Source: Lachnospiraceae bacterium
Lineage (GTDB): Bacteria; Bacillota; Clostridia; Lachnospirales; Lachnospiraceae
Direction of reading: 5' to 3'
Length of the DNA: 45,753 nt
Assembly (NCBI GenBank): GCA_910574745.1
Contig: CAJTCE010000032.1
Span: 1 to 45,753 of the forward strand
The notes below the pieces were generated by a model. The model worked only from the letters and a program-made list of their open reading frames with translations, had not been told where the DNA came from and searched no databases. Positions 24,761 through 42,217 of the stretch are shown in pieces. The position numbers and the translations under genes were made by a program. Numbering within the stretch: position 1 is the first letter of the stretch; every line of letters starts with the position of its first letter.

Positions 24761-24795
24761 TAAAAGCCTGGTAAATACTAGGCTTTTATTTTTTT
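24761..24795. terminator. bidirectional terminator between tRNA-Gly and integrase
   Basis: TAAAAGCCT and AGGCTTTTA form a nine-pair stem followed by a T run on the plus strand. On the minus strand the A-rich flank gives a complementary T tract. It ends the tRNA operon and overlaps the last codons of the integrase gene. Confidence 0.8.
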
Positions 24796-25848: not shown

Positions 25849-25852
25849 AATA

Positions 25853-26176
25853 TCATTTCCTTTCTGTAATGTTGCAATGGTAAATTTGGGCATAAAAATG
25901 CCCGGTAACTTGTGCTTTTACCGGGAAAATGATATAATTTACCTGTTCTGGGGTAATTATATCGGGTTTTCCTGGTGTAATCCTGCCATCGCCTCTGATG
26001 TTGGTAGCATCAGGGGCGGTTTGAACTATTGGAATTTTTCCTATAGTTGAACTTTCAAGCAATTTGTTGGTTTCAACAAAATGGTCAGGAGTCATATGTT
26101 TGACAGATTTATGTATATTAGTTATAATGTGCTTAACAAGAGAACCGAAAGCTAGAACACACCTAGCCGCCGGCAA
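25853..26176 (-). CDS. hypothetical ORF upstream of the integrase
   Basis: A 107-codon reading frame whose stop lies five bases before the integrase start, with the integrase ribosome site inside its last codons. That tight spacing is the only argument for it. The protein matches no family I recognise, has no clear ribosome site of its own, and its N-terminal third may be non-coding. A shorter start at the internal ATG (MTPDHFVETN) is possible. It sits where an excisionase might be expected, but I see no helix-turn-helix. Confidence 0.25.
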   Translation of the reverse strand: MPAARCVLAFGSLVKHIITNIHKSVKHMTPDHFVETNKLLESSTIGKIPIVQTAPDATNIRGDGRITPGKPDIITPEQVNYIIFPVKAQVTGHFYAQIYHCNITERK

Positions 26177-27207: not shown

Positions 27208-27804
27208 TTACTTCACATCACTCTGGAAAGCGACTGCTTTTCCTAGGACATGAAAATTGTTTAGTTCATCATTTAAAAAAATCATATCCTCAAAAGCGGG
27301 ATTTTCGGATTTTAAGATAACCATGTTTTTTTCAGCATAATAAAAAAATCTTTTAAGGGTTGCTTCATTATCGTTATTTATAACAACGGCTGCAATTTCT
27401 CCATTGTCAACTATATCCTGTTTTCGGATAAAAACAATGTCCCCATCACAAATCCGGGCATTGATCATACTGTCGCCCTTTGCTTTTAAACAGAAATCAG
27501 CTTTAATATCCGTTCCGGCCATTATATAGCTTTCCCTGTCTTCGTTCGCAAATATGGGTTTACCACAGGCGATTTCTCCGAGCATGGGGAAACGTTTTAG
27601 TTCTATTGAAAATATATTCGATAGGGTAGATGAAAACACCATCTTTTTCATCTATTAAATCGGATTTATCAATATGAAAATAGTCAGCTAGTAATTGGAC
27701 TTTTCCCATGCGGGGGAGGGCTATTCCTTGACACCATGTATTAAATGTTTGAGGAGATACATTAATCGCATCAGCAACTTCTTTTTGAGATTTTGAATAT
27801 TTAT
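27208..27804 (-). pseudogene. phage-type HTH-S24 repressor, frameshifted and truncated by IS1380
   Basis: Remnant of a LexA/CI-like repressor. The downstream part (27208-27651) encodes an intact S24 peptidase domain: FPMLGEIACGKPIFAN with the cleavage region, nucleophile Ser in AKGDSMIN and the general-base Lys in ATLKRFF. The upstream part, in another frame (about 27640-27804), encodes a Cro/C1-type helix-turn-helix (SQKEVADAINVSPQTFNTW, then GIALPRMGKVQLLADYF). One frameshift separates the two near 27600-27650, and the first residues of the HTH are missing where the IS terminus begins. A functional repressor is therefore unlikely, although the S24 part alone has an ATG. The family normally represses element genes until DNA damage triggers self-cleavage. 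Confidence 0.75.
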
Positions 27805-27817
27805 CCTGAATTATTCA
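27805..27817. repeat. IS1380 terminal inverted repeat, left
   Basis: CCTGAATTATTCA matches the right terminus inverted over 13 of 13 bases; with the two preceding bases AT the match is 15. It abuts the truncated repressor HTH. Confidence 0.8.
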
Positions 27818-27957
27818 TGAGCATATAAAAATGCTTCATACTACAAAATCTTGAACCAGTTTCCTTGAAATCAATCGAGTTATCCACAAAAATGGATAGA
27901 CTTTCCCCTTGGAATCCGATAGAGTTATTTTGAACTGTCAAGGTACGTTACCAGTTG

Positions 27958-28783
27958 CTATTCCAACTGTACTGTCAGCTGCCGGATATTCTCCAGCGTC
28001 TTATAGAACTCCTTTTTATAAGGACAGCTGCCTGAACCAATTGAATAAATTGTAGGCAAGCATGTGAAGCCTCATGCGGTTGGCATTTACCACTTTGGAA
28101 TGACTGCTGACAGCAGCAAAGTCAAATCCGCTTTTGCCTTCCTTGATAAAGTTTTCCATCCTGCCGCGATTACGGTAAAACTGAATGACCTGATAAGGTT
28201 CCATATCCATGTTTGTAACAATAAAGGTGTGCATGTGTGTCAGCTGGCCGTATGGTTTTTCAATCTTGAAAACCACGCGCCTTGGATAATCCCAGGAGCC
28301 GGCCTGATACAGGAATTCGCCATAAGTTACCGCATAACTGATCGGGTCATCTTTGGCTGCTTTGTACAGGTCTTCTTCTTTATCCGAAGCAAGGGCAATG
28401 AGTGAAGGATTCTGTTTTAAGCGGATGGCATAGGAACAGCCATTCATCTCGCATGCTTTGTAAAGCCTGGGAGAAGAAAAACCACTGTCGCCGCGGAGGT
28501 ACGTTTTGATCCCTCTTTCCAGGTATTCCCGAAAAAGGGGTTCCATAAATTTATCTGCATCGTTGCTGCAGTGGAGTGTTCCATCACGCAGTTCTGCTTT
28601 GAGCAGATCCCCGGTCAGACCATCATAACAAAGCAGAGGATGATATCCGTGTGCCTGATAATGGAAGTTGAAGCCTTCCCCTTCCTGACTGCCGTAGGTG
28701 CCAAACAGAGTACTGTCCAGATCCAGAAGCATATGCTCCGGACACTTTATGGAGTAGATGATATCCCGGAGGCTTTTTCTCAT
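27958..28783 (-). pseudogene. IS1380 transposase, C-terminal part (deleted and frameshifted)
   Basis: Encodes the catalytic centre of an IS1380-family DDE transposase: LLDLDSTLFGTYGSQEG, FHYQAHGYHPLLCYDG, YLRGDSGFSSPRLYK and RNRGRMENFIKEGKSGFDF. The frame stops at 28016 after LFNWFRQLSL. The normal protein tail, YKKEFYKTLENIRQLTVQLE and a stop, reappears in another frame at 27958-28025, so a stretch of roughly 40 codons seems to have been deleted out of frame. The 5' part of the gene is at 41120-41496, across the IME. This copy cannot encode an active transposase. Confidence 0.82.
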
Positions 28784-28797
28784 GTGAGATAAAGAAG
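28781..28797. repeat. IME left terminal repeat
   Basis: CATGTGAGATAAAGAAG matches the inverse of the right end (41095-41111) at 14 of 17 positions; the shared core is CATGT-N4-TAAAGAAG. Confidence 0.6.
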
Positions 28798-28858
28798 TAA
28801 AAGAAGTGTAAAAAATTTTGCCGTTCCCTGTCCGGCTGACTGCCGGACGGGTCGGGCT

Positions 28859-30481
28859 TTAGTCGGGCAATTCTACCTTGCCGACAAAAGAGTAATAGAT
28901 TTCGATTTCCTGTCTGCGGAGCTTCCCCCGGCGTTTCCCGTCAAGGGCTTCCGATTCGTGGATTACGATTTTCTCCACAAACTCCCGTAACAGGGTAGGG
29001 GTGAGTTCCTCAAAGCTGGTGTACTTGCGTACCACTTTCATAAACTTTTCAGCGTTTGCCGTGGCTTCCAGCGTCTTAGAAAGCTCGCTCTGCAAGGCGG
29101 CGGCTTTCTCTTTCAGTTCCTTTTGCTCGGCTTCATAGTCTGCCGAAAGCTCCGTGAAACGCTCGTCCGATATGCGCCCGGTCACGCTGTCCTCATACAG
29201 CCGCTTGAAGATAGCGGAGAGTTCCGCAATCCGCTTTTCTGCCGCTTCCAGTTCTTTCTTCCTTGCGGCGTTCCGGCGTTTGCTCCCGTCCTCGGTCTGC
29301 TCGGTCAACAGCTTCATAAACCGGGCTTCGTGCTTTGCGGCGTAGCTGGTGACTTTCCGTAGGTTCTCGGTCACTCCCTCGGTCAACAGGTCGGTGCGGA
29401 TAAAGTGCGCCGTACAGTCACGGGTGCGCTTCTTGTAGCTGCCGCATATGTAGCAGTCCTGCCGCCGCTTGTCCGTCTGATACCTCTGCTGGTACATGAC
29501 GCTGCCGCAATCCGCACAAAACAGTATGCCGGAGAACAAGCCCACTTCATCATAGCGGTTCGGGCGTTTGCGCTGCTTGCGTAGCTCCTGCACACGTTCC
29601 CATGTGTCACGGTCTATGATTGGTTCGTGGTGGTTCTCAAATACCGCCTGTTTCTCCACGGGATTTTCTACACTGTGCTTTACCTTGTAGGACACTTTCT
29701 CGGTCTTGAAGTTCACAAGGCAGCCCGTGTACTCCCGGTTTTCAAGGATATGCGCCACGGTGTTAGTCGCCCACTTGCACTCATAGCCGGGGTGGTAGCG
29801 GCGTGTGCTTCCCGTCCGGCGGTATTCCAGCGTTCCCGGCGTGGGTGTCTGCTGCTCCGTGAGCATACGGGCTATCTTGGTCGGTCCGTTCCCGGCAAGG
29901 CAAAGGCTGTATATCTGCTTCACCACGGGGGCGGCTTCCCCGTCAATGATGAAATTTTCGTCCTCGTCCATGAGGTAGCCGTACACGGGCTTGCTTGTGA
30001 CAGGCTTCCCACTCATGCCTTTTGAGCGTTTTACCGCCCGGATTTTCTTGCTCGTATCCCTCACCAGCCATTCGTTAAAAATGTTACGCAAGGGGGCAAA
30101 ATCGTTGTCGCCCTGTGCGCTGTCAACGCCGTCATTGATGGCAATGAAACGGACGTTTTTCTGTGGGAAAATCATTTCTGTGTACATTCCCACTTGTAAG
30201 TAGTTTCGCCCTAACCGTGACATATCCTTGACTATGACTGTACCAACAAGCCCCGCTTCAATGTCGGCAAGCATGGACTGGAAGCCGGGTCTTTGAAAAT
30301 TCGCCCCGGAATAACCGTCGTCCGTGTACCATTTCAGATTTGAAAAGCCGTTCTGTTTGGCGTAGTTTTCAAGGATTCGCTTCTGGTTGCTTATGGAATT
30401 GGATTCCCCGGAAAGCTCGTCCTCATGGGATAATCTCGGATAAAGGGCGGTGATAAGTGTTGTGGTGGTCTGTCTTGACAT
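28859..30481 (-). CDS. tnpX: large serine recombinase (TnpX/TndX family)
   Basis: Excises and inserts the IME by serine-recombinase chemistry, with the TnpX/TndX preference for GA-centred sites. It has 540 residues: resolvase domain (about 8-160) with nucleophile Ser18 in YPRLSHEDE and the motif SRLGRNYLQVGMYTEMIFPQ, then a recombinase domain (about 180-290, GPTKIARMLTEQ). A zinc beta ribbon (CADCGS, CYICGSYKKRTRDC), a coiled coil (about 400-470) and a C-terminal DUF4368-like tail follow. I start at ATG 30481 behind GGAGG. It is the last gene on the minus strand, near the left end of the element. Confidence 0.92.
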   Translation of the reverse strand: MSRQTTTTLITALYPRLSHEDELSGESNSISNQKRILENYAKQNGFSNLKWYTDDGYSGANFQRPGFQSMLADIEAGLVGTVIVKDMSRLGRNYLQVGMYTEMIFPQKNVRFIAINDGVDSAQGDNDFAPLRNIFNEWLVRDTSKKIRAVKRSKGMSGKPVTSKPVYGYLMDEDENFIIDGEAAPVVKQIYSLCLAGNGPTKIARMLTEQQTPTPGTLEYRRTGSTRRYHPGYECKWATNTVAHILENREYTGCLVNFKTEKVSYKVKHSVENPVEKQAVFENHHEPIIDRDTWERVQELRKQRKRPNRYDEVGLFSGILFCADCGSVMYQQRYQTDKRRQDCYICGSYKKRTRDCTAHFIRTDLLTEGVTENLRKVTSYAAKHEARFMKLLTEQTEDGSKRRNAARKKELEAAEKRIAELSAIFKRLYEDSVTGRISDERFTELSADYEAEQKELKEKAAALQSELSKTLEATANAEKFMKVVRKYTSFEELTPTLLREFVEKIVIHESEALDGKRRGKLRRQEIEIYYSFVGKVELPD

Positions 30482-30614
30482 AGATTCCTCCGTTTCCGAC
30501 AGCCAGCCCACTATTCCGTAGGTCTATTATACCATAGGGCGGGGCTGGCTGTACAGTCCTTTTTGCTACTTTATGGGATATAACGTCGAATGTTTTTAAT
30601 CAAGGAATGTCACT

Positions 30615-30812
30615 TTATATGGCGTGGGCGGCTCTTTCCCCGGCTGCGCTTTCGGCTTCCAGCACTTTCATCATCTTGTCGGCTGCGGTGGCGGTGGTGT
30701 CCTGTTTGAAGTAGCCGGAAACCACAAGGACGGTGTTCCCCCGGCGTACCTCGGTCACGCAATCCGGGCGGCGGGCGGTAGTGGCGGTGCTTCTGTTGGG
30801 GGTGTCGGTCAT
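30615..30812 (-). CDS. tnpW: transposon-encoded protein TnpW
   Basis: A 65-residue protein with the TnpW core RRGNTVLVVSGYFKQDTTAT, then AADKMMKVLEAE. TnpW proteins accompany TnpX-type recombinases in Tn4451-like elements, with no established function. The start overlaps the stop of the DnaC-like gene by four bases (ATGA), so the two are translationally coupled. Confidence 0.8.
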   Translation of the reverse strand: MTDTPNRSTATTARRPDCVTEVRRGNTVLVVSGYFKQDTTATAADKMMKVLEAESAAGERAAHAI

Positions 30813-31660
30813 AGGCTCTCCTTTCTGTTCAGCAGCATTTTAAGCTGTTCCATTTTCTCCCTTGCTTTGGCTTTTCTGAAATTCTCCCCGGTAATGCAGA
30901 CAGGGGAACACATTTCAATAAGGCGGTCATAAATCCGGGCGTGGGGCGTGTCCTCCGGGTTCTGCAATTCTTCCAGCGTCAAATTTGTGGTGACTATCAG
31001 CGGCTTTCTGCTGCGGTATCGGCTGTCAATCACGTTGTAAACCTGTTCAAGCCCGTATTCCGTGCCACGCTCCATGCCGAAATCGTCAAGGATAAGCAGA
31101 GGGAAGCTGCAAAGGCGGGCTATGTATTCATTCCTGTCCTTGTAGCTGGCGGCAAGGTCATTGAGTATCAAAGCAAAGTTTGTCATACTCACGGAAACCT
31201 CTTTCTCCATGAGGGCGTTGGCGATACACCCGGCAAAATAGCTCTTGCCTGTGCCGACTTCTCCCCACAAAATCATTCCGTGGTTTCCGTCCTTTATCTG
31301 CTCCCATTGTTCCACATAGGCACGGGCTTTCGCCATTTGGGGACATTTCCCGTTGTCGTTCCCGAAAGTCCATTCCCTCATAGCCGGGTCTGTGAAGCCG
31401 ATTCTTTTCAGCCGTTCCACTTCCTCCCGGTGCTTGTGTTCCCGGTCTGCGGCTTCCAGCGTTTCCCGGCGTTTCCGCTGGCAGTCACATTCTTTGGGGT
31501 GTCGGTCACGCCCGAAAAGCGTCTTACCCTCCGGGAAGTAGGCTTCTTTGGGCTGGCGGCATTTCCCGCAGTATAAAAGCCCGTCCTCGCCTATGTAGTC
31601 CTCCGGCTCTGTTTCCTGTGCCGTGGCAAGCCGGAAAACAGCGTTATCATAATCACTCAT
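30809..31660 (-). CDS. DnaC/IstB-like helicase-loader ATPase
   Basis: Replication accessory ATPase of 283 residues. The N-terminus carries a cysteine cluster (Cys31, Cys34, Cys58, Cys60) that could bind zinc. The AAA+ core has Walker A GEVGTGKS (133-140) and Walker B FPLLILDDFG, with sensor-like VTTNLTLEEL and arginine-rich YDRLIEMC. It lies just downstream of RepA, and the pair probably supports autonomous replication of the excised element. AGGAGG precedes the ATG at a good distance. Confidence 0.87.
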   Translation of the reverse strand: MSDYDNAVFRLATAQETEPEDYIGEDGLLYCGKCRQPKEAYFPEGKTLFGRDRHPKECDCQRKRRETLEAADREHKHREEVERLKRIGFTDPAMREWTFGNDNGKCPQMAKARAYVEQWEQIKDGNHGMILWGEVGTGKSYFAGCIANALMEKEVSVSMTNFALILNDLAASYKDRNEYIARLCSFPLLILDDFGMERGTEYGLEQVYNVIDSRYRSRKPLIVTTNLTLEELQNPEDTPHARIYDRLIEMCSPVCITGENFRKAKAREKMEQLKMLLNRKESL

Positions 31661-31723
31661 AAAATCATTCCTCCTTGTTCATGGTCTTTTACGCCCTGTT
31701 TACGGGGCGTTGTATCTATGCTG

Positions 31724-32515
31724 TCAAAGGCTCTCGCCCTCTTTGTAGGTATAGTCGGGGATTCCCTTTTTCGGCTTCTCTTTTTTCTCCCGGTTTAACC
31801 AGCGGCGCAATGCGGCGGCATGGCACACATAATCATTCCCGCTGGCGGCTATGTACTCGCTCATTTCCTCAATGAACCGTTCCAGCCTGTCCGGGTATTC
31901 CTCTTTCAGCTCCGAATACTCGGATTCGGAGAGGAAAATATTTTTATATCTGCCAAAGGGTGCGGGCGGCTCCCCACTCGCTCCTTTTAGTTGGTTCTCT
32001 TTTAGTTGGTTTATAGTAAGTTGGTTAGGGGTCGGTTTTCCGTCCAACGCAAAGGTCGGTTTTCCGTCCTTATGAGGGTCGCTTTTCCGGCTATCAGAGG
32101 GTCGGTTTTCCGGCTGTATGGCGGTCATATGGTCGGAAAACTGTACCACTGGCACTTGCGGTATTTTCACATAAAGGCGGTTCGGTGCGGAGAAGCCCCG
32201 GCGTTCCCTCACCAGAAGCCCGGCAGCGTCCAGCTCGTTCAGTGCGGATTTTATGGCGGTTCTGCCTTTATCCAGCGTTTCCGCTATCTCCGAAACAGGA
32301 TAGACAATATACGTCCTGCCCTCGCTGTCCTGCCAGCCGTTCTTCTGTGAGAGGGTGGTACGGTCTAACAGCAGCGCATAGAGCAGCCTTGCGGTATATG
32401 ACAAGTCCATTTTCAGCAGAAAACAGGGATAAGGGAAAAACTGCGGCATTGCGGTGTCGGCTGTGATGTAATCGGTTATGGTTCTCACCTCCTGTCTGTG
32501 GCTTCTGTTACGCAA
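31724..32515 (-). CDS. repA: replication initiator RepA (RepA_N domain)
   Basis: A 263-residue protein whose N-terminal ~115 residues match the RepA_N domain of theta-replicating Gram-positive plasmids: FFPYPCFLLKMDLSYTARLL, then KGRTAIKSALNELDAAGLLV. The C-terminal part (SEYSELKEEYPDRLERFIEE) is typical of IME RepA proteins. The start is unsettled. The frame opens with a TTG at 32515, but the only strong ribosome site, AGGAGG (32489-32494), precedes an ATA codon at 32479 by eight bases and overlaps a GTG at 32488. Replication of the circular form is the expected role. Confidence 0.82.
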   Translation of the reverse strand: MRNRSHRQEVRTITDYITADTAMPQFFPYPCFLLKMDLSYTARLLYALLLDRTTLSQKNGWQDSEGRTYIVYPVSEIAETLDKGRTAIKSALNELDAAGLLVRERRGFSAPNRLYVKIPQVPVVQFSDHMTAIQPENRPSDSRKSDPHKDGKPTFALDGKPTPNQLTINQLKENQLKGASGEPPAPFGRYKNIFLSESEYSELKEEYPDRLERFIEEMSEYIAASGNDYVCHAAALRRWLNREKKEKPKKGIPDYTYKEGESL

Positions 32516-32588
32516 TTAAAGCGGCTTTTCCGGGGGTAAAGGATAAATGTATCGGCTACCCTTTGAGGGCGGTCGAAAAAGCCTTGAT

Positions 32589-32975
32589 TTACGGGCTTCT
32601 TTCATAGCCTAAATGCGTAGAAAGGTGGTATCTTTTCCGCTGACGCTCGGCTTCTTTCCGGCGGCGCACTCTTGCGGCGCAATCCGGGCAGTATTTCCCC
32701 CGGTTGGATTTGGGGAGAAAATACCCGCCGCACTCGGTACAGCGTTTCCTGTCTGCCCGGTGCAAAAGGGCGGCTTCCAGTTTCCCGTCCAGCGGCAGCA
32801 CGGCGGCAATGAACCAGCGGCACATAAGGGAATAGCTGATACTCTGTACACATACGCAAGGCTCGCCGTTATCCAGCAGGATACAGTTGCCGTTATCGTA
32901 GTTGCAGCACTCATGCACAAGCCGGCACGCCGCCCGGTACTGGCGGTAGTCCATTCTTGGTATCTTTGCGCCCAT
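32589..32975 (-). CDS. cysteine-rich VLP-domain protein
   Basis: A 128-residue protein with many cysteines: CRLVHECCNYDNGNCIL, then GEPCVCVQSI and a C-terminal zinc-ribbon-like KRCTECGGYFLPKSNRGKYC. The pattern is that of the cysteine-rich VLP family found in clostridial mobile elements, of unknown function. It is probably a small zinc-binding protein. It begins four bases downstream of the preceding gene, within the relaxase-to-RepA operon. Confidence 0.7.
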   Translation of the reverse strand: MGAKIPRMDYRQYRAACRLVHECCNYDNGNCILLDNGEPCVCVQSISYSLMCRWFIAAVLPLDGKLEAALLHRADRKRCTECGGYFLPKSNRGKYCPDCAARVRRRKEAERQRKRYHLSTHLGYERSP

Positions 32976-32979
32976 GCCC

Positions 32980-33495
32980 TCAACGCTCCCTTTCCGGCTT
33001 CCTGTCCGGGTACAGCTTCCCGGCGGCTACGGCGGCATGGCTCTTTATCTTGATTTCGCCCCGCCCCTCGCTGGCTCTTGCGTTCCTGTAGCCCTCATCA
33101 GAGAGAAAATAGCGGTGACGTTCCCCCGGAAATCCCACGGGGCTGTCGCTGGTCTTTACGTCAAGGACTATCATGTGGCGGGTTTCGGGGAGAAAACGCT
33201 CCATGCCCGTCAAGTCGTGTCCTTGCATGACTGGCTGCTGTGCCTTTGCTTCAGCAAGCCGCCGCCGGATAGAGTTCTCATGCCCCGCAAGGAAACGGGC
33301 TTTGTTGTCGGCGATAAACTGGCTGCATTCCGGCTCCGGTATCTTTTGCAGCTTCTCTATGGAGTTCTCCATGATTACCCTTGTCAACAGGTCTTTTATC
33401 ACGGGTACGGTTTCTTTCATGCCGCCTATGGTTTCCGCTTTGGTGGGTGCGGCGTACTGGTAAATCATTTCAAGCTCGCTGTTCGTAAATCTCAT
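32980..33495 (-). CDS. conserved IME protein of unknown function
   Basis: A 171-residue protein beginning MRFTNSELEMIYQYAAPTKA with AGGAGGT seven bases upstream. It is basic and hydrophilic, with no membrane segment. The middle (LPETRHMIVLDVKTSDSPVG) has a beta-strand pattern, and the tail is lysine/arginine-rich. I do not recognise a named domain. Its place directly after the relaxase gene, with tight spacing on both sides, suggests a role in mobilization or element maintenance, but that is position only. Confidence 0.65.
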   Translation of the reverse strand: MRFTNSELEMIYQYAAPTKAETIGGMKETVPVIKDLLTRVIMENSIEKLQKIPEPECSQFIADNKARFLAGHENSIRRRLAEAKAQQPVMQGHDLTGMERFLPETRHMIVLDVKTSDSPVGFPGERHRYFLSDEGYRNARASEGRGEIKIKSHAAVAAGKLYPDRKPERER

Positions 33496-33520
33496 GGCAT
33501 TACCTCCTGTGGCTGTTTTG

Positions 33521-35152
33521 TTATCGTTCCTGTTCGTGTTTTTTCTGCTGGCTCGGTGCGCCCCTCAAAATCTGCCCGATATTGCCCTTGACGGTCTGCA
33601 ATTCCCGGACGTTCTCTTTCTTCTCCCGGTACTCGTTGTAAAGGGCGTTTTTCTCCTTGGTAAGCTGCTCAATCTCGGTCTGTAATGCTTTGGACGCTGG
33701 CAGCTTGGAGATTCCCTGTGCCTTGAAATACCGGGCGGCGGATTCGGAAATGATAAACTCGCTTTCATGCTGCTCCCGGTAGGCTCTCCGGGCTTTCTCC
33801 GTTTTCTGCGCCCGCAATCCGTCACGGGCTGGCTTGGTCTTGATGTACGCTAATAGCTGTTTCTGCAAGTCTTTTTTCTCCCGTAAAGTGCTTTCCACGG
33901 CTTTCAGTTTCCCGGTGGTTTCATGCAAGCCCACACTGGCGGCGGCAAGGGCGGCTTCCAGTTCCTCCGGGGAAGAAAAGCCGGATTCCTCGTAAATGCT
34001 CATGGTCGCTGCCATTTGTTTTAGGTTATGGACAGCCGCCCAGCGGTCATATCCTATGCCCTTGCCCTCGGCTCGCTTGGCTTCCCGGTCTACCATGCGC
34101 TGTACGCTGTCCTGTTTCGGTGCGTTTATAGCGGCTTTGTTGCGTTGTAGACGGTCTTTTATGCTGTGGGGGTATTCCTGTTTGGGTAGGGGCTTTTCGG
34201 CGGTTCTTGCAGCGTTCTGTGCGTTTTGGGAGAGTGTTTCCAGTACGGCGGCACGGTCAAAATCATCACCTAATTTCCGGGCGGTGATTGGCTTCGTCCT
34301 GTCCGGCGTGAGATAACTCAATCTCCCCCGGCTCTCCTTGACGGTCACGCCCTGTTGTAACAGCTTCCCGGAAAAGTCCTCAAAGGAAACGGCAGAGGAC
34401 AGGGCGGTGCGGATCGTGCGCCGTAGCTTCTCCTTGTCGGTTTCAAATTTCGTAAGTTTGGGCGGCTCACCTGCGGTGGCAAGGGAAGCGTTCTCTTTAT
34501 CCAGTGCGGCTTGTCCTTTCCGTTTCGCCCAATACTCACGCTCGGTAACTCGGTTCTTGCTCCCGTTCAGCAAGTCAATCTGATAGAGGTTTTCCCGGTG
34601 GCACATCTCCATGACTTCCGCTTTGAAATACTCCATAGCTGCGTCCGTACAGCGGTGCTTACAGCCCTCCCTTGTGTCGGCTGGTCTTTCCATGTAGGGA
34701 AGCAGCGGCACTTCCGCAATCCGCAAAGAATTGATTACGATATGCACATGAATGTTGCCGCTGTGGTTATGTCCGTCCGGGTGGGTGCATACAAGGGCTT
34801 GGTGTCCGGGGAAATGCGTCTTGCAAAATTCCTCGCCCAACTCCTGCGCCCGGTCTACGGTCAAGCCGTTGTCGGCAGCGTCACGGGGGTCAAAGCTGAT
34901 AATATAGTGATGGCTCTTTACGTCCTCCCGTTTCTGGTTCTTGCCGTATTTGAGATTGGAGCGCATACACGCTATGGCGAAATCCTCGCCGCCGCAATTC
35001 AGAGAGGAAATGCGGTAATCGTCACGGGAGATAAGCCGCCCGTTTTCATCCAGTGTGGGCTTCATGGTAAACTCGTCATGCTCAAAGGTTAGGTACTGTT
35101 CAGCCGCCCCATAGTCGGCATTTTTAGAGCTGATATGTTTGAACGTTGCCAA
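33521..35152 (-). CDS. relaxase/mobilization nuclease (MobA/VirD2-like)
   Basis: Nicks the transfer origin and pilots DNA during mobilization. It has 543 residues. The N-terminus ATFKHISSKNADYGAA carries the Tyr-containing motif I region. The three-histidine metal site is clear in HPDGHNHSGNIHVHIVIN (about 125-142). The C-terminal half is a long charged coiled coil. The start is probably the TTG at 35152, with AGGTGA a suitable distance upstream; the GTG at 35161 overlaps that site. The gene overlaps the 3' end of mobC, so the two are coupled. Confidence 0.88.
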   Translation of the reverse strand: MATFKHISSKNADYGAAEQYLTFEHDEFTMKPTLDENGRLISRDDYRISSLNCGGEDFAIACMRSNLKYGKNQKREDVKSHHYIISFDPRDAADNGLTVDRAQELGEEFCKTHFPGHQALVCTHPDGHNHSGNIHVHIVINSLRIAEVPLLPYMERPADTREGCKHRCTDAAMEYFKAEVMEMCHRENLYQIDLLNGSKNRVTEREYWAKRKGQAALDKENASLATAGEPPKLTKFETDKEKLRRTIRTALSSAVSFEDFSGKLLQQGVTVKESRGRLSYLTPDRTKPITARKLGDDFDRAAVLETLSQNAQNAARTAEKPLPKQEYPHSIKDRLQRNKAAINAPKQDSVQRMVDREAKRAEGKGIGYDRWAAVHNLKQMAATMSIYEESGFSSPEELEAALAAASVGLHETTGKLKAVESTLREKKDLQKQLLAYIKTKPARDGLRAQKTEKARRAYREQHESEFIISESAARYFKAQGISKLPASKALQTEIEQLTKEKNALYNEYREKKENVRELQTVKGNIGQILRGAPSQQKKHEQER

Positions 35153-35519
35153 CGGCTTCACCTACTTTCTGCAAGACTTCAAACTTTAAAGCGGCAAGCT
35201 CGGCTATGGCGGCTCGTACCTCTTGGGAGAGGGCGTTATAGGGTGCGCCGTACTCGTTCAGACAGCGGGCAATCTGATTCAGATTCCCGCCGATTTTCCC
35301 GTACTCGGCTGTGAGATTTCCAACGGCAGAAAGTAATTCATCATTGACCGGGGAAACGGTAATGACCGGGCGTATTCGTGACTTGGTAAGGGCTTGCCGG
35401 ATAAACTCGGCTTGGCTCATTTTGCAGAGGGAAACACGCTCGGAAAACTCGGCGTATTCTTCCTCGGTCAAGCGTGTCTTGATTACCCGGTGGCGGTGGG
35501 GCGTGTTGTATCTTTTCAT
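35124..35519 (-). CDS. mobC: MobC-family mobilization accessory protein
   Basis: A 131-residue DNA-binding accessory factor that helps the relaxase at oriT. The N-terminus KTRLTEEEYAEFSERVSLCK and the segment MSQAEFIRQALTKSRI form the ribbon-helix-helix-like part, and GGNLNQIARCLNEYG is the MobC signature. I start at ATG 35519 with AGGAGG upstream, not at 35564. It overlaps the relaxase gene by about 30 bases. The stem-loops just upstream are the likely oriT. Confidence 0.85.
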   Translation of the reverse strand: MKRYNTPHRHRVIKTRLTEEEYAEFSERVSLCKMSQAEFIRQALTKSRIRPVITVSPVNDELLSAVGNLTAEYGKIGGNLNQIARCLNEYGAPYNALSQEVRAAIAELAALKFEVLQKVGEAVGNVQTYQL

Positions 35520-35561
35520 GGCTGTGAACCTCCTTTCGTGGATGGATTTTTTCAAGCGGCG

Positions 35562-35625
35562 CAAGCCGCAAAAGGCGGGCTTGGGGTGGCAACCCCAACA
35601 AGATTCCCGCAGGACAAATTGAGCC
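35562..35625 (-). other. candidate transfer origin (oriT) upstream of mobC
   Basis: Two strong stem-loops lie between mobC and the intron: TTGGGGT/ACCCCAA with a four-base loop, and GCGGC...GCCGC around GCGGCTTGCGCCGC. Inverted repeats next to mobC are the usual form of oriT in MobC/relaxase systems. They could instead shape the mobC leader. The nick site was not identified. Confidence 0.4.
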
Positions 35626-35662
35626 GATAGGCGAAATTTGGTACTGTGGTAGAATCTTGCTC

Positions 35663-35974
35663 TTAAAAAATGGCGGTTTCCTCTGTGCTGGCTTCCCTCA
35701 ATACCTTTAGTGCCGCAAGCGGGGATTTTGCCAAAACAACAGCGATATTTCTCTCGCTAATACCTACAAACCAGCAAAAAGGAAAATGGACGTTGATTTG
35801 CAGAAATTCCCCCTCATTCCTTACAACACCACGCAAGCCCGAATAGGTGGGAATTTTTGAAAATTTCTTCTCGCTCGCCCTCCACGGACAGCTTGCGGAT
35901 TTGTCAAACGTGAGAGGGAATTTCTTTCTATCCCCTTTGCACGGCATAATACCTACGATTTTTGAAAATGCCAA
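35663..35974 (-). CDS. hypothetical ORF between intron and mobC
   Basis: A 103-codon frame, possibly starting at an internal ATG (MPCKGDRKKF) with AGGT close upstream. The protein has one moderately hydrophobic stretch (NVHFPFCWFVGISERNIAVV) and a helical end (SPLAALKVLREAS). I recognise no family. It starts ten bases from the intron 3' end, so the intron may separate it from its promoter. Coding potential is uncertain. Confidence 0.35.
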   Translation of the reverse strand: MAFSKIVGIMPCKGDRKKFPLTFDKSASCPWRASEKKFSKIPTYSGLRGVVRNEGEFLQINVHFPFCWFVGISERNIAVVLAKSPLAALKVLREASTEETAIF

Positions 35975-35992
35975 AAATGGACGATCGAGTAG

Positions 35993-36065
35993 GAGGAAAT
36001 TTCTCTAATTGAGAAATTTCCGACCTCTCACACCACCGTGCGTACCGTTCGGTACACGGCGGTTC
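35993..36065 (-). ncRNA. group II intron domains V and VI
   Basis: On the minus strand GAACCGCCGTGTACC pairs with GGTACGCACGGTGGT around a GAAC loop (36031-36065), the shape and sequence of catalytic domain V. Domain VI follows, with stem GGAAATTTCTC/GAGAAATTTCC (about 35993-36022) and the branch-point region before the 3' splice site. Confidence 0.75.
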
Positions 36066-36072
36066 AATCAAC

Positions 36073-37356
36073 TTAACAAGTTACTCGCCTTTCGGCGTAG
36101 TAGTCCGACATGGAAACTAATCCAAACCGGGTTAGTCTCTCTTTCGTAACAGCCACATTCATTGCTCCTCTTTGGCATACATAGGCTATTCTTGCCCCTG
36201 TATATGCCGTTGACCACGCATATTTGCGGCTGATACCTAATTTTATCAGGTTCTTTGCTCTATTCTGCGGTGTTTTCCAATGCTTCCATATGCACATACG
36301 AAGCCGGTAGCGGATTTGACTGTCTAGCCGTTCGCATAACCCTTTCATGCTGCCGATTTTGAAATAGTTTATCCATCCTCGGATAAGTTGGTTGAGCTTC
36401 TTGACTTTGTATCCATTGCTCACTCCCCAACTCCTGCATGTGAGTTTCTTCATCTGCTCCCTGAACTTTGCCGCCGCTTTCGGGTGGGGTCTGGCTTTAT
36501 ACCCTTTGGCAAATGAGTCATAGTAGAATCCAAATCCCAGATACTTGATTCCCTTGGGCTTATCCACCTTACTTTTCTCCCCATTTACTTTCAGGCCCAG
36601 CCTTTCTTCGATAAATCGGGTGATGCTCTTCATTACCCGGTCTGCCGCCTGTCTGCTTCCGACCATGATAATCAGGTCGTCTGCGTAGCGGACGAAATCC
36701 AGCCCTCTTGCTTCCAGTTCTTTGTCCACTTCGTTCAGCATGACGTTCGCTAACAGCGGCGAAATATTTCCGCCCTGCGGCGTGCCCACTATGGTATCTT
36801 CATACTCGTCGTCTATCATCACTCCACTGACCAGGAACTTCCTTACTACCGATATGACATCCCCATCCTTGATTGTACGCCCGAAGATAGTCATCAGCTT
36901 GTCATGGTCTACTGTGTCAAAGAACTTTGCAAGGTCAATGTCTACAACCCAGCTGTGTCCGTCATTCATCATCTCTAATGCTTTCAAGACTGCCTGTTGT
37001 GCGCATCGGTTCGGCCTGAACCCATAGCTGTGGTCGTGGAACTGCTCTTCAAATATCGGAGTGAGCACCTGTGCTACTGCCTGCTGCACAAATCTGTCTA
37101 CCACCGTTGGTACTCCGAGTTTTCTTGTCCCGCCCTCTGGTTTGGGTATCTCCACCCTGCGGACTGGCTGCGGCTTATATTTCCTCGTCCGCAGCTTCTC
37201 CCTGATGCTTTCGCCGTTTTCCGAAAGGTATGCGCCAAGCTCTTCGACAGTCATCCCGTCCACGCCTGCCGCGCCTTTGTTCCTTACGACTTGCAGGTAC
37301 GCGGCATTAAGGTTATCCTTGCTCAATACCTGCTCCATGAGACTACTTGTGTCCAT
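36073..37356 (-). CDS. ltrA: group II intron reverse transcriptase/maturase
   Basis: Intron-encoded protein of about 427 residues from ATG 37356, which has AAAGGA upstream; a longer frame to 37446 lacks a ribosome site. RT blocks are present: NKGAAGVDGMTVEEL, RRVEIPKPEGGTRKLGVPTV, HDHSYGFRPNRCAQQA, the active site FVRYADDLIIM and KSKVDKPKGIKYLGF. The maturase X domain follows (LNQLIRGWINYFKIG). The protein ends soon after, with no HNH endonuclease domain. It assists splicing and retrohoming of the surrounding intron. Confidence 0.9.
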   Translation of the reverse strand: MDTSSLMEQVLSKDNLNAAYLQVVRNKGAAGVDGMTVEELGAYLSENGESIREKLRTRKYKPQPVRRVEIPKPEGGTRKLGVPTVVDRFVQQAVAQVLTPIFEEQFHDHSYGFRPNRCAQQAVLKALEMMNDGHSWVVDIDLAKFFDTVDHDKLMTIFGRTIKDGDVISVVRKFLVSGVMIDDEYEDTIVGTPQGGNISPLLANVMLNEVDKELEARGLDFVRYADDLIIMVGSRQAADRVMKSITRFIEERLGLKVNGEKSKVDKPKGIKYLGFGFYYDSFAKGYKARPHPKAAAKFREQMKKLTCRSWGVSNGYKVKKLNQLIRGWINYFKIGSMKGLCERLDSQIRYRLRMCIWKHWKTPQNRAKNLIKLGISRKYAWSTAYTGARIAYVCQRGAMNVAVTKERLTRFGLVSMSDYYAERRVTC

Positions 37357-37836
37357 GCGTTGTTTCCTTTCTGCCCCTTTTGCCTTTGCCGCCTTTGAAG
37401 TCATCGACAGGCGTATGCTCTGGCTACGAAGTGGAACGTACTTCAACTGATTGATTGTTCAGCCCTTCGCTCCATTCCCATTACAGGAACTTCTTCACTA
37501 CTATGGCTTCTGCTGACTCCTCACAGTTCGTTGTTACTACGGCTGATGAGACCGCCTGTGAGACCTCCACGCTTAAGGTGCGCACTCTTTCCCCTCACCT
37601 ATCCGCCACATCTACTCGTACTTCCGGCAACTTTTGGACTTCATCTCTTTTGGCAGACTTATCCGTATTTCCGAGCCTTATATGTGATTTCTGTCCGTCG
37701 GACCAAGGGTTTGCCTACAGCTTCCTTCAGATTCCACCTCACGATGGACACCCTTGCTGTTCAGCTATACACTTCCTCGTTGCCCAGGCGTGTTCGGGAC
37801 TTTCACCCGTTAGAGCGCGCCCATGGCGCGCAAACC

Positions 37837-37869
37837 AAAAAAACAGGAAACCTTTTCTTGATTTCCTGT
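37837..37869 (-). terminator. terminator of the sigma/HTH operon, intron target
   Basis: On the minus strand ACAGGAAA and TTTCCTGT (37862-37869 with 37843-37850) form an eight-pair stem followed by a run of seven T. It ends the operon of the HTH_16 gene. The group II intron begins a few bases beyond the T run. Confidence 0.8.
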
Positions 37870-37898
37870 CTTGGTGTGCCGTTTCTATGTAGCGGCGG

Positions 37899-38123
37899 TT
37901 ATTCAGTTTTGTGGTATGGCTGTTCATCAAAACGGAACTTGAACAATGCGGCAACAAGCCGGGATTTTATACTGTCCTCGGTATCTCTGTCGATATGCCC
38001 GTTTTCAATGGCGGCGATTCGGATTCGCTTGCTGTAATGCCGTAAAACCTCGTCCACGGCTTCCGGCTCGCCGCTGGTCGCCCGGACAATCGTTTCATAG
38101 GGTAAAAGGTTCGGATTCCCCAT
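37899..38123 (-). CDS. HTH_16-type helix-turn-helix protein
   Basis: A 74-residue protein, start [20 protein letters not shown], preceded by GGAGGTG. The segment [20 protein letters not shown] with [10 protein letters not shown] matches the small helix-turn-helix proteins found beside sigma factors in Tn916-like elements. It overlaps the 3' end of the sigma-factor gene by 29 bases. A joint role in controlling element genes is the usual assumption. Its terminator lies 30 bases downstream. Confidence 0.72.
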
Positions 38124-38553
38124 GTGAAAGCACCTCCATTTCTTTGTGCAGGAGCTGTAAAGTCCTGCGGATTTGATACCCGGTGGTACTCCGGCAGCGT
38201 CCGTACATTTCCCCGATTTCCTGCTGTGTGTAATGCCCGAAAAAGTAAAAGAAAATGATTTCCCGGTTCTTCTCTGGCAGGGATAACAGGGCAGCGGCAA
38301 GCTCCCCATTGGTGAGGATAACTGTCTGACCGCATACCGTAATGGGGTATTCTTCATAGGGTGCTTCAAAATATTCGTCTGTTGTGCCTAATGGGTAAAA
38401 CTTTTCTTCTGTGAGGTATTCAAGGGATATTTCCTTTTGCCGCCGCCTGCTCCTGTCACGCCATGCGTTGATAGCCGCAAAGCGTATGACGGTCTTGCAA
38501 TAGCCGTTGAAAGTATACATGATGTGTTCTCTGTATGCTTCTGTGCAAGGCAT
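38095..38553 (-). CDS. sigma-70-like regulator (Tn916 Orf7-type)
   Basis: A 152-residue protein with a small region-2-like N-terminus (YREHIMYTFNGYCKTVIRFA) and a region-4 helix-turn-helix (LLSLPEKNREIIFFYFFGHY, then TQQEIGEMYGRCRSTTGYQI). Such short sigma-like proteins in Tn916-related elements control transfer or excision genes. AAAGGGGG is nine bases before the ATG. The M56 peptidase gene ends 40 bases upstream on the same strand. Confidence 0.78.
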   Translation of the reverse strand: MPCTEAYREHIMYTFNGYCKTVIRFAAINAWRDRSRRRQKEISLEYLTEEKFYPLGTTDEYFEAPYEEYPITVCGQTVILTNGELAAALLSLPEKNREIIFFYFFGHYTQQEIGEMYGRCRSTTGYQIRRTLQLLHKEMEVLSHGESEPFTL

Positions 38554-38593
38554 AAGCGATTCCCCCTTTCTCCCACATGGGGCGGTGCGTAGT

Positions 38594-40363
38594 TTACAGT
38601 TCCGTATATGAAATTTGTGTTCCGTTATAGTTAATAGTTAAGGACACATTTTGCTGAATCTCAAGCAGTACATAGTTTCCAGTTGTAGTACCCATATCAA
38701 AAACATTTACCGTACCACTATTACGGTCTGTGTAAATTTCCGGCTGGAAAGTGTAATTGTAAGGCAAGCCGCCAAAATAGATATATTGATACCCGGCACT
38801 TTTAATTACATACCATGTTTCTGTATCGCAAGAGCTTATAATATCCCTAAGTTCTTCTGAAAGTTCTTCCTTTGTTACTCTGACACTTCTTCCAATATTT
38901 TGGTCTTTTAACGGCACATCTGAATTATCAAGTGAATCTTCTTTTTCCAGTGGCACTTCTAATTGGTTGTCCGGTGAATACTCGTCCATATCATAAAGCA
39001 ATTCATCTGCTTCTGATTCTGTAAGATATTCAACATTTGTAATGGAATTATTTTTATCCCGTAACACACGCAAATCTATACTTCCCTCGTTATCAAAAAT
39101 AAAATTTTCAAAAGAGCCATTCATTCGTAAGTCCATAAAAATTCTGACACGTTCACCGTGATAGTAGTAAATACCGTCTGTGACAGTGATTCCATGCTGT
39201 GCGTATTCTGTGGAATATTGATTCTCCGTTTTCTCTGTTTTATTTTCAGTTTCTTTTATATTTCTATCCGATTCGGTTTTTATTGATACTTCATTCGGCT
39301 TGCCATTATCTTTCAAAACTAAGTTATTGTTAGTCGCAGGAGAGGCGGCATACGCACCAGTCACAAAAAAACAAACGCAAACTAAAACAGAGAAAATAGC
39401 GGTAATGGCAATAATGCCCTTTGATTTTTTCTTAAATTTCATAATAGCACCTAACCTTTCTTTTAACTGTTCTGCTCCCTCTGTCAAAGTGACAGAAGCT
39501 AAAGAACTTTTGTAGAGATTGTTTGACTGCAAAAAGGAAATCAGAGTATCTCCATATTCACGCCTTGCTTTGTCGTCAAGTATGGATATAACTTTTTCAT
39601 CACATGACAATTCACAAGATTTATTCACTTCCTTTTCCAACAAATATACAAAAGGATTGAACCAATGGGCGCAGACAACAATCTGTATCAGCCATTTGTA
39701 GAACATATCCCTCTGCTTGTAGTGAATCAGCTCATGCACAAAGATATAAGACAATTCTTTATCGTCCAATTCGCAGGCTGGTAAAACAATTCTTGCACGA
39801 AAGAAGCCAATCATTATAGGGGAAGCAATCAACGGATTGCGGGATAGCTCCACTCTTGTTTTGATATTCAGTTTTTCTTCACAATCAGATAGCAAATTCA
39901 AGGTTTTAATATCCGATACTTCTGTACTACCCGCTTTGATGTATTGGATAAAGCCTTGGTAAATCGTTATCTTACGCACAAATAGAACCAATGCAAATAC
40001 TGACCAGATAAAAAACAGGCAGACGTATCTGTTAAATGGCTCACGCATAGCGGCGGCTATATCCCGGTCTGCCTGTATTGGCTCTGTTTTACTGTTATCT
40101 GTATTTGCGGGAGCTGGTACATTCGGGCTTGTAGGGATTTCATTTGTTATCACTGTTGTGCCGGGCTTTTCAAACAGGCTCCCAACAATCGTAGTATCGG
40201 GAGTAAAAGGAAGTAAAAACCGCAACGCAACAATTATCCAGATATAGTATTGCCATCGCTTGCTGAATCTGCTTTTATATAGCGGTTTCAATCCCAAAAT
40301 GAGAAGTAATAACAGTGTGCCGGAAACAGACAGCGACAATAATATTTTCATAAATTCATTCAT
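38594..40363 (-). CDS. BlaR1/MecR1-like M56 membrane metallopeptidase with novel sensor domain
   Basis: Signal-transducing membrane protease of 589 residues from ATG 40363 (GGAGAAAAG upstream; the stop of blaI overlaps it by eight bases). Three membrane helices surround the M56 zinc-protease domain with motif FVHELIHYKQRD (His210, Glu211, His214) and the downstream Glu in NKSCELSCDEK. A fourth helix (about 317-338) leads to an extracellular domain of ~250 residues. That domain is not a penicillin-binding domain: no SxxK or KTG is seen. It has an Asn/Glu-rich linker and a beta-rich end (SAGYQYIYFGGLPYNYTF). The protease should cleave the BlaI-like repressor on sensing an unknown signal. Confidence 0.83.
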   Translation of the reverse strand: MNEFMKILLSLSVSGTLLLLLILGLKPLYKSRFSKRWQYYIWIIVALRFLLPFTPDTTIVGSLFEKPGTTVITNEIPTSPNVPAPANTDNSKTEPIQADRDIAAAMREPFNRYVCLFFIWSVFALVLFVRKITIYQGFIQYIKAGSTEVSDIKTLNLLSDCEEKLNIKTRVELSRNPLIASPIMIGFFRARIVLPACELDDKELSYIFVHELIHYKQRDMFYKWLIQIVVCAHWFNPFVYLLEKEVNKSCELSCDEKVISILDDKARREYGDTLISFLQSNNLYKSSLASVTLTEGAEQLKERLGAIMKFKKKSKGIIAITAIFSVLVCVCFFVTGAYAASPATNNNLVLKDNGKPNEVSIKTESDRNIKETENKTEKTENQYSTEYAQHGITVTDGIYYYHGERVRIFMDLRMNGSFENFIFDNEGSIDLRVLRDKNNSITNVEYLTESEADELLYDMDEYSPDNQLEVPLEKEDSLDNSDVPLKDQNIGRSVRVTKEELSEELRDIISSCDTETWYVIKSAGYQYIYFGGLPYNYTFQPEIYTDRNSGTVNVFDMGTTTGNYVLLEIQQNVSLTINYNGTQISYTEL

Positions 40364-40730
40364 TTTCTTTTCTCCAAAACGATTCAATTTCTTTCAACTC
40401 GTCTGCTGAAAGAATATCCTGCCGCAACAAAGTTGACACTAAATTTTTCACATTCCCGCCGTAGACTTTATCAAGAAAGCTGTGGGTCTGCATGGTCTGA
40501 TATTCTGCTTCTGTTACCATAGCCACATACTCATTCTTCCTGCCGATTTTTTTGACTTTTAAGAACTTTTTTTCTCCTAATCGGGAAAGCAGTGTGAGTA
40601 CGGTATTATTCTTCCATTCGTTCTTGTCTTTCTCCAATTCCTCCATGATGACGGAGTATAAAGCTGCCCCTCCATTCCTCCAAATGATTTTCATTAGTAC
40701 CAATTCGGATTCAGAAATTTGCTGTGCCAT
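40356..40730 (-). CDS. BlaI/MecI-family repressor
   Basis: A 124-residue winged-helix repressor (Penicillinase_R family): ISESELVLMKIIWRNGGAAL, then NNTVLTLLSRLGEKKFLKVK and the dimerization tail YGGNVKNLVSTLLRQ. It is normally inactivated by proteolysis through its M56 partner, encoded next with an eight-base overlap. AGGAGG precedes the ATG. Two copies of an 18-bp repeat lie in its own promoter (40747-40791), which fits autoregulation. No beta-lactamase gene is present, so the regulated target is probably the operon itself or genes elsewhere. Confidence 0.87.
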   Translation of the reverse strand: MAQQISESELVLMKIIWRNGGAALYSVIMEELEKDKNEWKNNTVLTLLSRLGEKKFLKVKKIGRKNEYVAMVTEAEYQTMQTHSFLDKVYGGNVKNLVSTLLRQDILSADELKEIESFWRKENE

Positions 40731-40746
40731 TTTGTCCTCCTTTTAC

Positions 40747-40798
40747 CTTAACATTTTGTGGGTGTATGAATATCTTAACACTTTGTAGGTGATAATGC
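40747..40798 (-). promoter_or_regulatory. promoter and tandem BlaI operator-like repeats
   Basis: CTTAACATTTTGTGGGTG (40747-40764) and CTTAACACTTTGTAGGTG (40774-40791) agree at 16 of 18 positions with a 27-bp period. Each carries an ACA-N3/4-TGT type dyad on the minus strand, like BlaI operators. A -35 TTGCAT and -10 TAAGAT 17 bases apart overlap the upstream copy, so repressor binding would block the promoter. Confidence 0.55.
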
Positions 40799-40867
40799 AA
40801 TACCCTAAAGGAAATTTAAGAATTTATAAAAAGATATGAAAGATAGGGGGGGATTCCGTAGTAGTCG

Positions 40868-41018
40868 GCACTGTGCGTAATGTGCATAACTTGCTATCTT
40901 ATGGAGTTGTGGGAAAGTCTGTTTGCAGAATGTGGGAAAGCTGCACTTTAGCTTTTCCATGTTCTGTGAACGGACTTTTCCATGACGGAATAGCAAGTTA
41001 TACACATTTCCACGGTGC
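40868..41018. repeat. 151-bp imperfect inverted repeat (giant hairpin) near the IME right end
   Basis: Outer arms GCACTGTG and CACGGTGC frame long complementary stretches: ATAACTTGCTAT with ATAGCAAGTTAT, GGGAAAGTCTGTT with AACGGACTTTTCC, CAGAA with TTCTG, and GGGAAAGCT with AGCTTTTCC, around a short loop near 40945. The reading frames that cross it show no family features and look like by-products of the repeat. It could be a non-autonomous element, a replication or transfer origin, or a structured RNA. Confidence 0.75.
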
Positions 41019-41094
41019 TTGTCTTTTGGTCTTTGGTTTCTTTGGTTCGGAATAGTGTGGTGCTGGCGGTCTATCTCTTGTTTTCGGTTGCTTG

Positions 41095-41111
41095 CTTCTT
41101 TACCGTACATG
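41095..41111. repeat. IME right terminal repeat
   Basis: CTTCTTTACCGTACATG is the inverse counterpart of 28781-28797 (14 of 17). It is followed within about 15 bases by IS1380 transposase coding sequence. Confidence 0.6.
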
Positions 41112-41119
41112 AGCATTTA

Positions 41120-41496
41120 TCAATGTCATCAAACTGAAGGAGTGTATCTTCGTCCATACGGTTGAAAAATCTTGACAATGTTGGCTGTGAAGCCAGACTG
41201 TTCTTTTCAAGAATGGCATTGAAAACAGGATCAAGGGTCAGTTCATCAGCGCAGTCATCCTTAAAATATGCAGAGATGATCTGATAGATCATCTGCATAA
41301 GATTTTCGTCATCTTTGTGGAAGCGGACCGACTTATCATTGGTTTTGAAATTCTTTTTGATCAGCCTGGTAAAGCCGGTCTTTGCAGCGAATTCTTTTAT
41401 CAGAAGAAGACCTGCATCGGAGGATAGATCGCCTCCATCAAAATTTATTTTAATCTGTCTATTGCTTTTCAGTGATAAGGTGTTTAAAATATCCAT
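41120..41496 (-). pseudogene. IS1380 transposase, N-terminal part
   Basis: Start codon at 41496 behind AAGGAG. The protein opens MDILNTLSLKSNRQIKINFD and continues GGDLSSDAGLLLIKEFAAKT, the family N-terminus, up to SRFFNRMDEDTLLQFDDI. It then runs into IME sequence and stops at 41071. The rest of the transposase lies at 27958-28783. Joining the two across a GA-centred crossover leaves the frames one base out of register. Confidence 0.85.
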
Positions 41497-41646
41497 AAAG
41501 GGCTCCTTTGTGTGATGATTAAGACGTTGAACACCTTAATTTTACCACAACTGGATGCTCTTTTTTATTCACTTAACAGATAAAATGCAATAAACAGCTT
41601 AAATACAGTAACCACGTGGCTTTCAGCCACTTTCACGGCACAGCCG

Positions 41647-41659
41647 TGAATAATTCAGG
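41647..41659. repeat. IS1380 terminal inverted repeat, right
   Basis: TGAATAATTCAGG is the exact inverse of the left terminus (27805-27817). It abuts the 3' remnant of a plus-strand gene. Confidence 0.8.
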
Positions 41660-42205: not shown

Positions 42206-42217
42206 GGAAATGCGGGA

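Follow-up and report, generated by a model that had tools for sequence, protein, structure and literature searches.

The closest described relatives of the element studied here are integrative mobilizable elements (IMEs) of Bacillota. In the IME_Rho_tet family, 116 of 256 sites lie in MAFF2 open reading frames (ORFs), the element ends 81-90 bp past the recombinase stop, and related elements reportedly disseminate tetracycline resistance among gut bacteria (excerpts of PMC12904643). Streptococcal IMEs have been described in maff2, traG and snf2 of integrative and conjugative elements (ICEs) of the Tn5252 superfamily (excerpts of PMC5357655 and PMC5704250), and mobilizable elements of the Tn4451/TnpX type are given low target specificity in the excerpted text of PMC5704250. 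We analyzed a 45,753-nt contig of a Lachnospiraceae bacterium (CAJTCE010000032.1, referred to below as the window or C32), which belongs to a 4.35-Mb draft genome in 106 contigs. It holds an IME that carries a group II intron and lies between the two halves of an insertion sequence (IS) of the IS1380 family. We explain this arrangement, at a probability of about 0.88, by entry of a maff2-type IME into the IS1380 transposase gene at a secondary site, entry of the intron into the IME, and exchange of the outer IS flanks with those of a second IS copy on contig C20.

The termini of the IS lie at 27805 (CCTGAATTATTCA...) and 41659 (...TGAATAATTCAGG), carry 13-bp inverted repeats and span 13,855 bp. 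The C-terminal half of the transposase (ORF 28016-28783) matched NF033539, the IS1380 transposase model, with 232.5 bits against a cut-off of 180, and covered PF13701 positions 122-377. The N-terminal half (ORF 41071-41496) covered positions 2-123 of PF13701. NF033539 on the C-terminal half and PF13701 on both halves identify a DDE transposase of the IS1380 type. Contigs C20 and C10 of this genome carry intact copies of the IS with an unbroken 438-aa transposase, and both are continuous exactly where the inner edges of the two IS halves meet. The left IS half was 99.1% identical to the C10 copy over 753 bases and 98.2% over 227, and 98.1% identical to the C20 copy over 753 bases and 98.7% over 231. 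The right IS half was 98.7% identical over 551 bases to C20, 98.4% over 558 to C10, and 99.8% over 500 to a further copy on C66. Homology to the IS reached 28777 on the left and started at 41113-41116 on the right, with the bases TTT common to both. Close to the C-terminal end of its transposase, the window copy is missing 119 bp that the C10, C20, C66 and C80 copies have. The lengths agree exactly, as 13,855 minus 12,341 (the IME plus one core) gives 1,514, and the 1,633 bp of the C20 copy minus 119 also give 1,514.

These alignments indicate that the two halves in the window were once one transposase gene, which has been broken twice, by the 119-bp loss and by the IME insertion. The original prediction, made from the letters of the window without database searches, had placed two IS1380 termini 13.85 kb apart, with the C-terminal half on the left and the N-terminal half on the right, both on the minus strand, and had proposed that a 12.3-kb IME split the IS on integrating. 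The profile placements and the join of the intact copies at the inner edges bear this out. The prediction had also named clear divergence of the halves from one reference as the sign of two different IS copies. Such divergence was absent, as each half was some 98-99% identical to both intact copies.

The ends of the IME follow the pattern ACATGAG(C/A)A-AA-TGCTCATGT about the core, and the arms are near-perfect inverted repeats. One end lies about 82 bp beyond the integrase stop. We observed GAGA beside the core at the window IME end (28777-28786), where most relatives have GAGC; the A is shared with loci L117, L119, L120 and L123.

Relatives of the integrase were collected in two sets. For the first, 200 family genomes were searched, giving 20 matches of at least 81% identity outside the window's own genome, of which 15 had loci and the other five had none. 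The second comprised the best 80 loci in the genome_contigs collection; 79 were scorable, and L136 was cut before the IME end. Several loci came from one genome or were near-identical, so that the counts given below for maff2 and off-target sites do not represent independent events. In the named collection, the integrases most similar to that of the window came from Lachnospiraceae, Oscillospiraceae, Clostridiaceae and other Clostridia; many of these records bear MGBC names, which denote a mouse gut catalogue.

With 91-100% identity to the integrases of the 80 loci of the second set, the window integrase belongs to a clade that prefers maff2. All but one of the 15 loci of the first set ended in the same sequence, AA-(A/G)(TCN or AGC)CAGGGCATGAAGCAG or close to it; L044 ended elsewhere. 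Reading the junctions of the second set by eye, we placed 59 of the 79 scorable loci in maff2 and 20 elsewhere, and fixed the off-target list at these 20 loci. In genome G046, for example, positions 41-70 of PF12750 (Maff2) lay directly beside the integrase and positions 1-43 at the far end of the IME. The halves of PF12750 that flank such IMEs identify their usual target as maff2. The maff2 hosts are presumably ICEs with a TrbL/VirB6-like gene next door, as a neighbouring frame suggests. The window IME sits instead in an IS1380 transposase. A profile search of the draft contigs found no Maff2 match in its own genome. Such a match was present in 14 of 16 genomes carrying such an integrase, the exceptions being this genome and G008, whose IME (L044) is likewise off target. 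None of the tool's 14 control genomes matched the Maff2 profile, so that the relatives themselves served as the positive control.

The off-target relatives provided a motif with which the IS1380 site could be compared, the window's own site being left out. Among the 20 off-target sites, A occurred at +6 in 13, G at +8 in 16, G at +9 in 13 and T at +12 in 18. The attR ends were collected for 39 of the 80 loci, and in the eight off-target sites with both ends, -17G, -15T, -12A, -8C and -6T each occurred in six. The motif is a dyad, in which -12, -8 and -6 mirror +12, +8 and +6. The native IS1380 site, as preserved in the C20 and C10 copies, matches eight of the nine positions. Across the 80 loci, 3 of 143,616 AA sites scored as high, and in the window none of 9,017 did. 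The match to an independently derived motif makes an insertion by the integrase at a secondary site likely, and we conclude that the window IME probably represents secondary-site integration by a maff2-type serine integrase.

Several observations weigh against this account. Fifteen of the 19 genomes with off-target relatives have a Maff2 match, which weakens the idea that off-target insertion generally stems from a lack of maff2. A full-length match (positions 1-70) was found in 7 of the 19 off-target genomes and in 9 of 14 on-target genomes, which with so few genomes is not a clear difference. At +6 the IS1380 site does not have the A of the motif, and the left half-site of the motif is based on eight sites. 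A six-position score that omitted +6A (6 of 6 for the site, against 20 of 143,659 in the background) flattered the site and was superseded by the nine positions. In addition, several of the 106 contigs of the draft end in this IS, which makes joins through IS repeats and the absence of Maff2 less certain than in a finished genome.

The good fit of the IS site to the off-target motif, together with the intact C20 and C10 copies that offer the same site, might also mean that this IME lineage has adapted to IS1380 copies as a regular target. However, tblastn found no IS1380 transposase in 109 related loci (flanks of 1.5 to 10 kb, with positive controls run). A degenerate search for the IME-IS1380 junction found it in one of 397 family genomes, the window's own, and the viral contigs gave none. 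L069, the IME whose integrase comes closest (100% identical), is inserted elsewhere than in IS1380. No clade targeting IS1380 was thus found, no other relative examined sits in IS1380, and we regard a regular target of this kind as very unlikely.

We compared the outer flanks of the IS copies by matching six left with eight right flanks, or 48 pairings. Five pairings matched over at least four bases, and all five were exactly 5 bp long and one-to-one. Three joined flanks of separate contigs (CTTAT for C76/C70, GTAAT for C80/C2 and TTTAA for C66/C62). The other two were swapped, with TTTAT shared by the left flank of the window and the right flank of C20, and ATTAG by the left flank of C20 and the right flank of the window. 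The flanks of C10, the right flank of C6 and the right flank of C66 remained unpaired. Column-shuffled flanks gave five matches in 1.2% of trials; the frequency at which the three complete copies showed a reciprocal swap was also about 1.2%. Together with the terminal inverted repeats, the 5-bp duplication across copies, though not within the window copy, defines the IS, and the flanks indicate that IS copies of this kind make 5-bp target duplications. The excerpt of PMC4133298 gives no duplication length for IS1380. A 13.9-kb transposon borne by the IS would show the same 5-bp duplication at both outer ends; the window has TTTAT on the left and ATTAG on the right.

The reciprocal pairing implied that the window and C20 copies probably exchanged partners, through recombination between IS copies or through misassembly. 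That the swap is a misassembly inside the IS repeat, with no rearrangement in the cell, is suggested by the five contigs that end inside this IS (C2, C6, C70, C76 and C80), which make a misjoin about as likely as recombination. The broken-end pairs C76/C70 and C80/C2 have perfect 5-bp duplications, and the four copies whose two ends lie on a single contig (C32, C20, C10 and C66) all fail to pair with themselves. On the other hand, the 119-bp deletion, particular to the window copy and about 220 bp from its left flank, helps to anchor the left side, and missing duplications often result from recombination between IS copies (excerpt of PMC11708052). We put a purely technical origin of the swap slightly below even odds.

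The same flanks bear on a more far-reaching alternative, in which two IS1380 copies recombined and the split merely joins different copies around the IME, with no integration into the IS. The window flanks lack a mutual target duplication, both pair with C20 flanks, and the left flank is the interior of a repressor gene that the right flank does not visibly continue. However, the two inner junctions coincide in the IS sequence, share a core and show the ends usual for the IME, as if made by the integrase, and relatives show identical IME ends at other sites. Exchange between IS copies alters the outer flanks and leaves the inner junctions as they were. We therefore find this alternative hardly credible for the IME split; recombination between IS copies, or misassembly, has its place at the outer flanks. 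The integration of the IME into the IS accounts for the inner junctions.

Other copies of the IS have peculiarities of their own. The C66 copy (L029, G000:C66:2000-8500) is also interrupted, with the last 51 right-end bases about 1.66 kb away from the rest, and has about 100 extra bases in the transposase part relative to the window. L031 (G000:C5, 179044-179578) and L038 (G000:C4) are more diverged remnants, and in the C5 remnant a segment of about 110 bases matches the opposite strand. At 1490-1526 of L037 (G000:C58), two IS right ends form a 37-base palindrome, resembling a miniature inverted-repeat element.

The original prediction placed the whole stack inside a tRNA-Gly element whose repressor the IS had truncated. 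In support, a tyrosine integrase adjoins the tRNA-Gly gene, and the S24-type repressor is cut at the IS boundary. The repressor remnant is also frameshifted, with the peptidase domain open at 27208-27651 and an upstream helix-turn-helix remnant in another frame; its S24 part was 77.5% identical over 138 residues to a longer relative in L164. The start of the repressor was recognised neither in the right flank of the window nor in that of C20. No right attachment repeat of the tRNA-Gly rose above noise within the window, and no second element end was found there. Related integrase-side DNA occurs at the start of contig C49 of G201, from the same genus. The right flank (41660-43390) gave only short, chance-like matches in 145 genomes (26-54 bases, 80-96% identity), and real counterparts in other genomes began from 43391 onward. 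We also observed that the stretch 43391-43955, which includes a Spo0A C-terminal-like gene, recurs at 93% identity on contig C35 of this genome. For the gene beside the C20 copy, a search of 31 genomes found a counterpart of that gene in G008 (68%) and otherwise nothing that identified the old neighbour. As the window flanks pair with those of C20 and share no duplication, a simple step from tRNA-Gly element to IS was not supported. Whatever the cause of the swap, the DNA to the right of 41660 may not be part of the tRNA-Gly element, and a right side foreign to that element would agree with the failure to find a second attachment repeat.

Between the IS halves, the IME, which the prediction had called TnpX-type, comprises large serine recombinase, relaxase, MobC-like, RepA_N and DnaC-like genes over 12,339 bp (Table 1). 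The PF03432 and NikA-like/MobC matches identify a relaxase and an accessory mobilization protein. No resistance gene, tetracycline ribosomal-protection genes included, was detected when 12 IME proteins were scanned with Pfam and eight of these also with NCBIfam. The L069 IME, whose integrase is the identical one mentioned above, was 99.6% identical to the window IME over 6.9 kb, up to 35670, and within its 10-kb stretch there was no match beyond this point. This suggests an exchange of the cargo end between the two IMEs. In L113, a related IME adjoins the start of what appears by eye to be another serine recombinase gene.

Table 1. Coordinates of the features in the window.
Feature	Position	Strand	Remarks
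tRNA-Gly (GCC)	24686..24757	+	ARAGORN; adjoins the integrase of the outer element
Tyrosine integrase of presumed tRNA-Gly element	24778..25893	-	Phage_integrase, Phage_int_SAM_3
S24-type repressor remnant	27208..27804	-	start region lost at IS boundary
IS left part (terminal inverted repeat and transposase C-terminal half)	27805..28774	-	ORF 28016-28783
attL core	28775..28776		AA on minus strand, TT on plus
IME	28777..41115	-	12,339 bp between cores
Large serine recombinase, 550 aa	28859..30511	-	Resolvase, Recombinase, Zn_ribbon_recom, DUF4368
TnpW-like small protein	30615..30812	-	
DnaC/IstB-like ATPase	30809..31660	-	
RepA_N replication initiator-like protein	31724..32515	-	
Cysteine-rich VLP protein	32589..32975	-	
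DUF5720 protein	32980..33495	-	TTRAP match just under cut-off
MobA/VirD2-type relaxase, 546 aa	33521..35161	-	PF03432
MobC/NikA-like accessory protein	35124..35564	-	
Group II intron, 1,852 bp	35984..37835	-	directly after intrinsic terminator
Intron-encoded reverse transcriptase/maturase	36073..37446	-	RVT_1, GIIM; TIGR04416
Sigma-70 region 4 protein (cargo)	38095..38553	-	
M56/BlaR1-like sensor peptidase (cargo)	38594..40387	-	under NCBIfam cut-offs for BlaR1, MecR1
BlaI-like repressor (cargo)	40356..40730	-	Penicillinase_R
attR core	41116..41117		AA on minus strand, TT on plus
IS right part (transposase N-terminal part and right terminal inverted repeat)	41118..41659	-	IS-derived part of ORF 41071-41496

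Rfam models placed D5/D6 of the group II intron at 35984-36064 and parts of D1-D4 at 37462-37748 (RF02001, RF01998, RF00029). The bases matching 35983 and 37836 were adjacent in 15 of the 80 relatives, and no locus matched up to both intron edges held anything between them. These 15 contiguous empty sites set the intron limits at 35984-37835 and imply a precise insertion, which together with the catalytic domains D1-D4 and D5/D6 characterizes a group II intron. The 5' exon ends in a stem and a T-run, an intrinsic terminator, right at the 5' end of the intron; insertion just after a Rho-independent terminator is the IIC pattern. A domain scan of the maturase found RVT_1 and GIIM, and no nuclease domain was detected. 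The genome contains one full-length copy of the intron and three partial matches. In L101, a related IME matches into the 3' end of the intron at the same site, near its contig start. A full group II intron inside the IME had been foreseen, as had a search for an empty IS and an uninterrupted IME; the intact IS copies of this genome and the 15 related IMEs contiguous at the intron site are such counterparts. Of the four predicted layers, the IME in the IS and the intron in the IME stood as a nesting, in which the intron may have arrived before or after the IME entered the IS.

The events can be combined as follows. A maff2-type IME would have entered a genome with no detected Maff2 gene, and its large serine integrase would have recombined an attP site, with near-palindromic arms and a 2-bp AA core, with a secondary attB site in the IS transposase. 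This attB would lie within one copy of a multicopy IS1380-family IS, at the point where the protein reads DDIDK on one side and SLRD on the other. The IME would have received a terminator-seeking group II intron, before or after the IS insertion, and the outer flanks of the split IS would have been exchanged with those of the C20 copy, by recombination in the cell or misassembly. To judge from the open frames, the IME should still be capable of excising by its own integrase and of being mobilised, through its relaxase and MobC-like protein, by a conjugative helper. A further idea, which we hold to be improbable, is that in maff2-less genomes the many IS1380 copies serve maff2-type IMEs as dispersed surrogate att sites and that an IS1380 transposase acting in trans on the intact outer IS ends could carry the whole 13.9-kb unit. 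If true, a conjugative hitchhiker would gain a second route of movement.

The layers and their behaviour are of known kinds, and the unusual point is the gene that houses the IME. The nesting of intron in IME in IS is well resolved, with uninterrupted counterparts at both inner junctions, and the case shows where such an IME can go on missing its usual target. It provides a usable rule for off-target landing of maff2-preferring IMEs, namely an AA core flanked by contacts that mirror each other near positions 6, 8, 9 and 12. It also indicates that IS flanks should be paired by target duplications before the order of insertions is read. Titles and the opening lines of abstracts on nested IMEs with IS1380 gave no obvious match, and we claim no absence from the literature.

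Compared with described systems, the intron resembles the bacterial-C introns (excerpt of PMC8919778), with its position directly after a Rho-independent terminator and a maturase with no detected nuclease domain; we noted no notable difference, the likeness being drawn from insertion position and maturase domains. The IME shares with IME_Rho_tet and other maff2 IMEs of gut Bacillota a serine recombinase, inverted-repeat ends, an end whose distance from the recombinase stop, about 82 bp, falls in the 81-90 bp range, a preference for MAFF2-type ORFs with a large minority elsewhere, and relaxase and mobC in one orientation, a likeness taken from the published description (excerpts of PMC12904643). 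Unlike IME_Rho_tet, it showed no ribosomal-protection tetracycline gene among the proteins scanned; its cargo is a sigma-like gene and a BlaR1/BlaI-like pair, and it carries a group II intron and sits in an IS1380 transposase. Like the streptococcal IMEs, as excerpted, which enter conserved ICE genes by serine integrases and are proposed to hitchhike by conjugation, it has replication and mobilization genes, but the gene interrupted here belongs to an IS and not to an ICE. Like elements of the Tn4451/TnpX type, it has a TnpW-like protein and a large serine recombinase that contains DUF4368. The core of that type is GA; the window clade differs from it in its AA core and in its clear preference for maff2.

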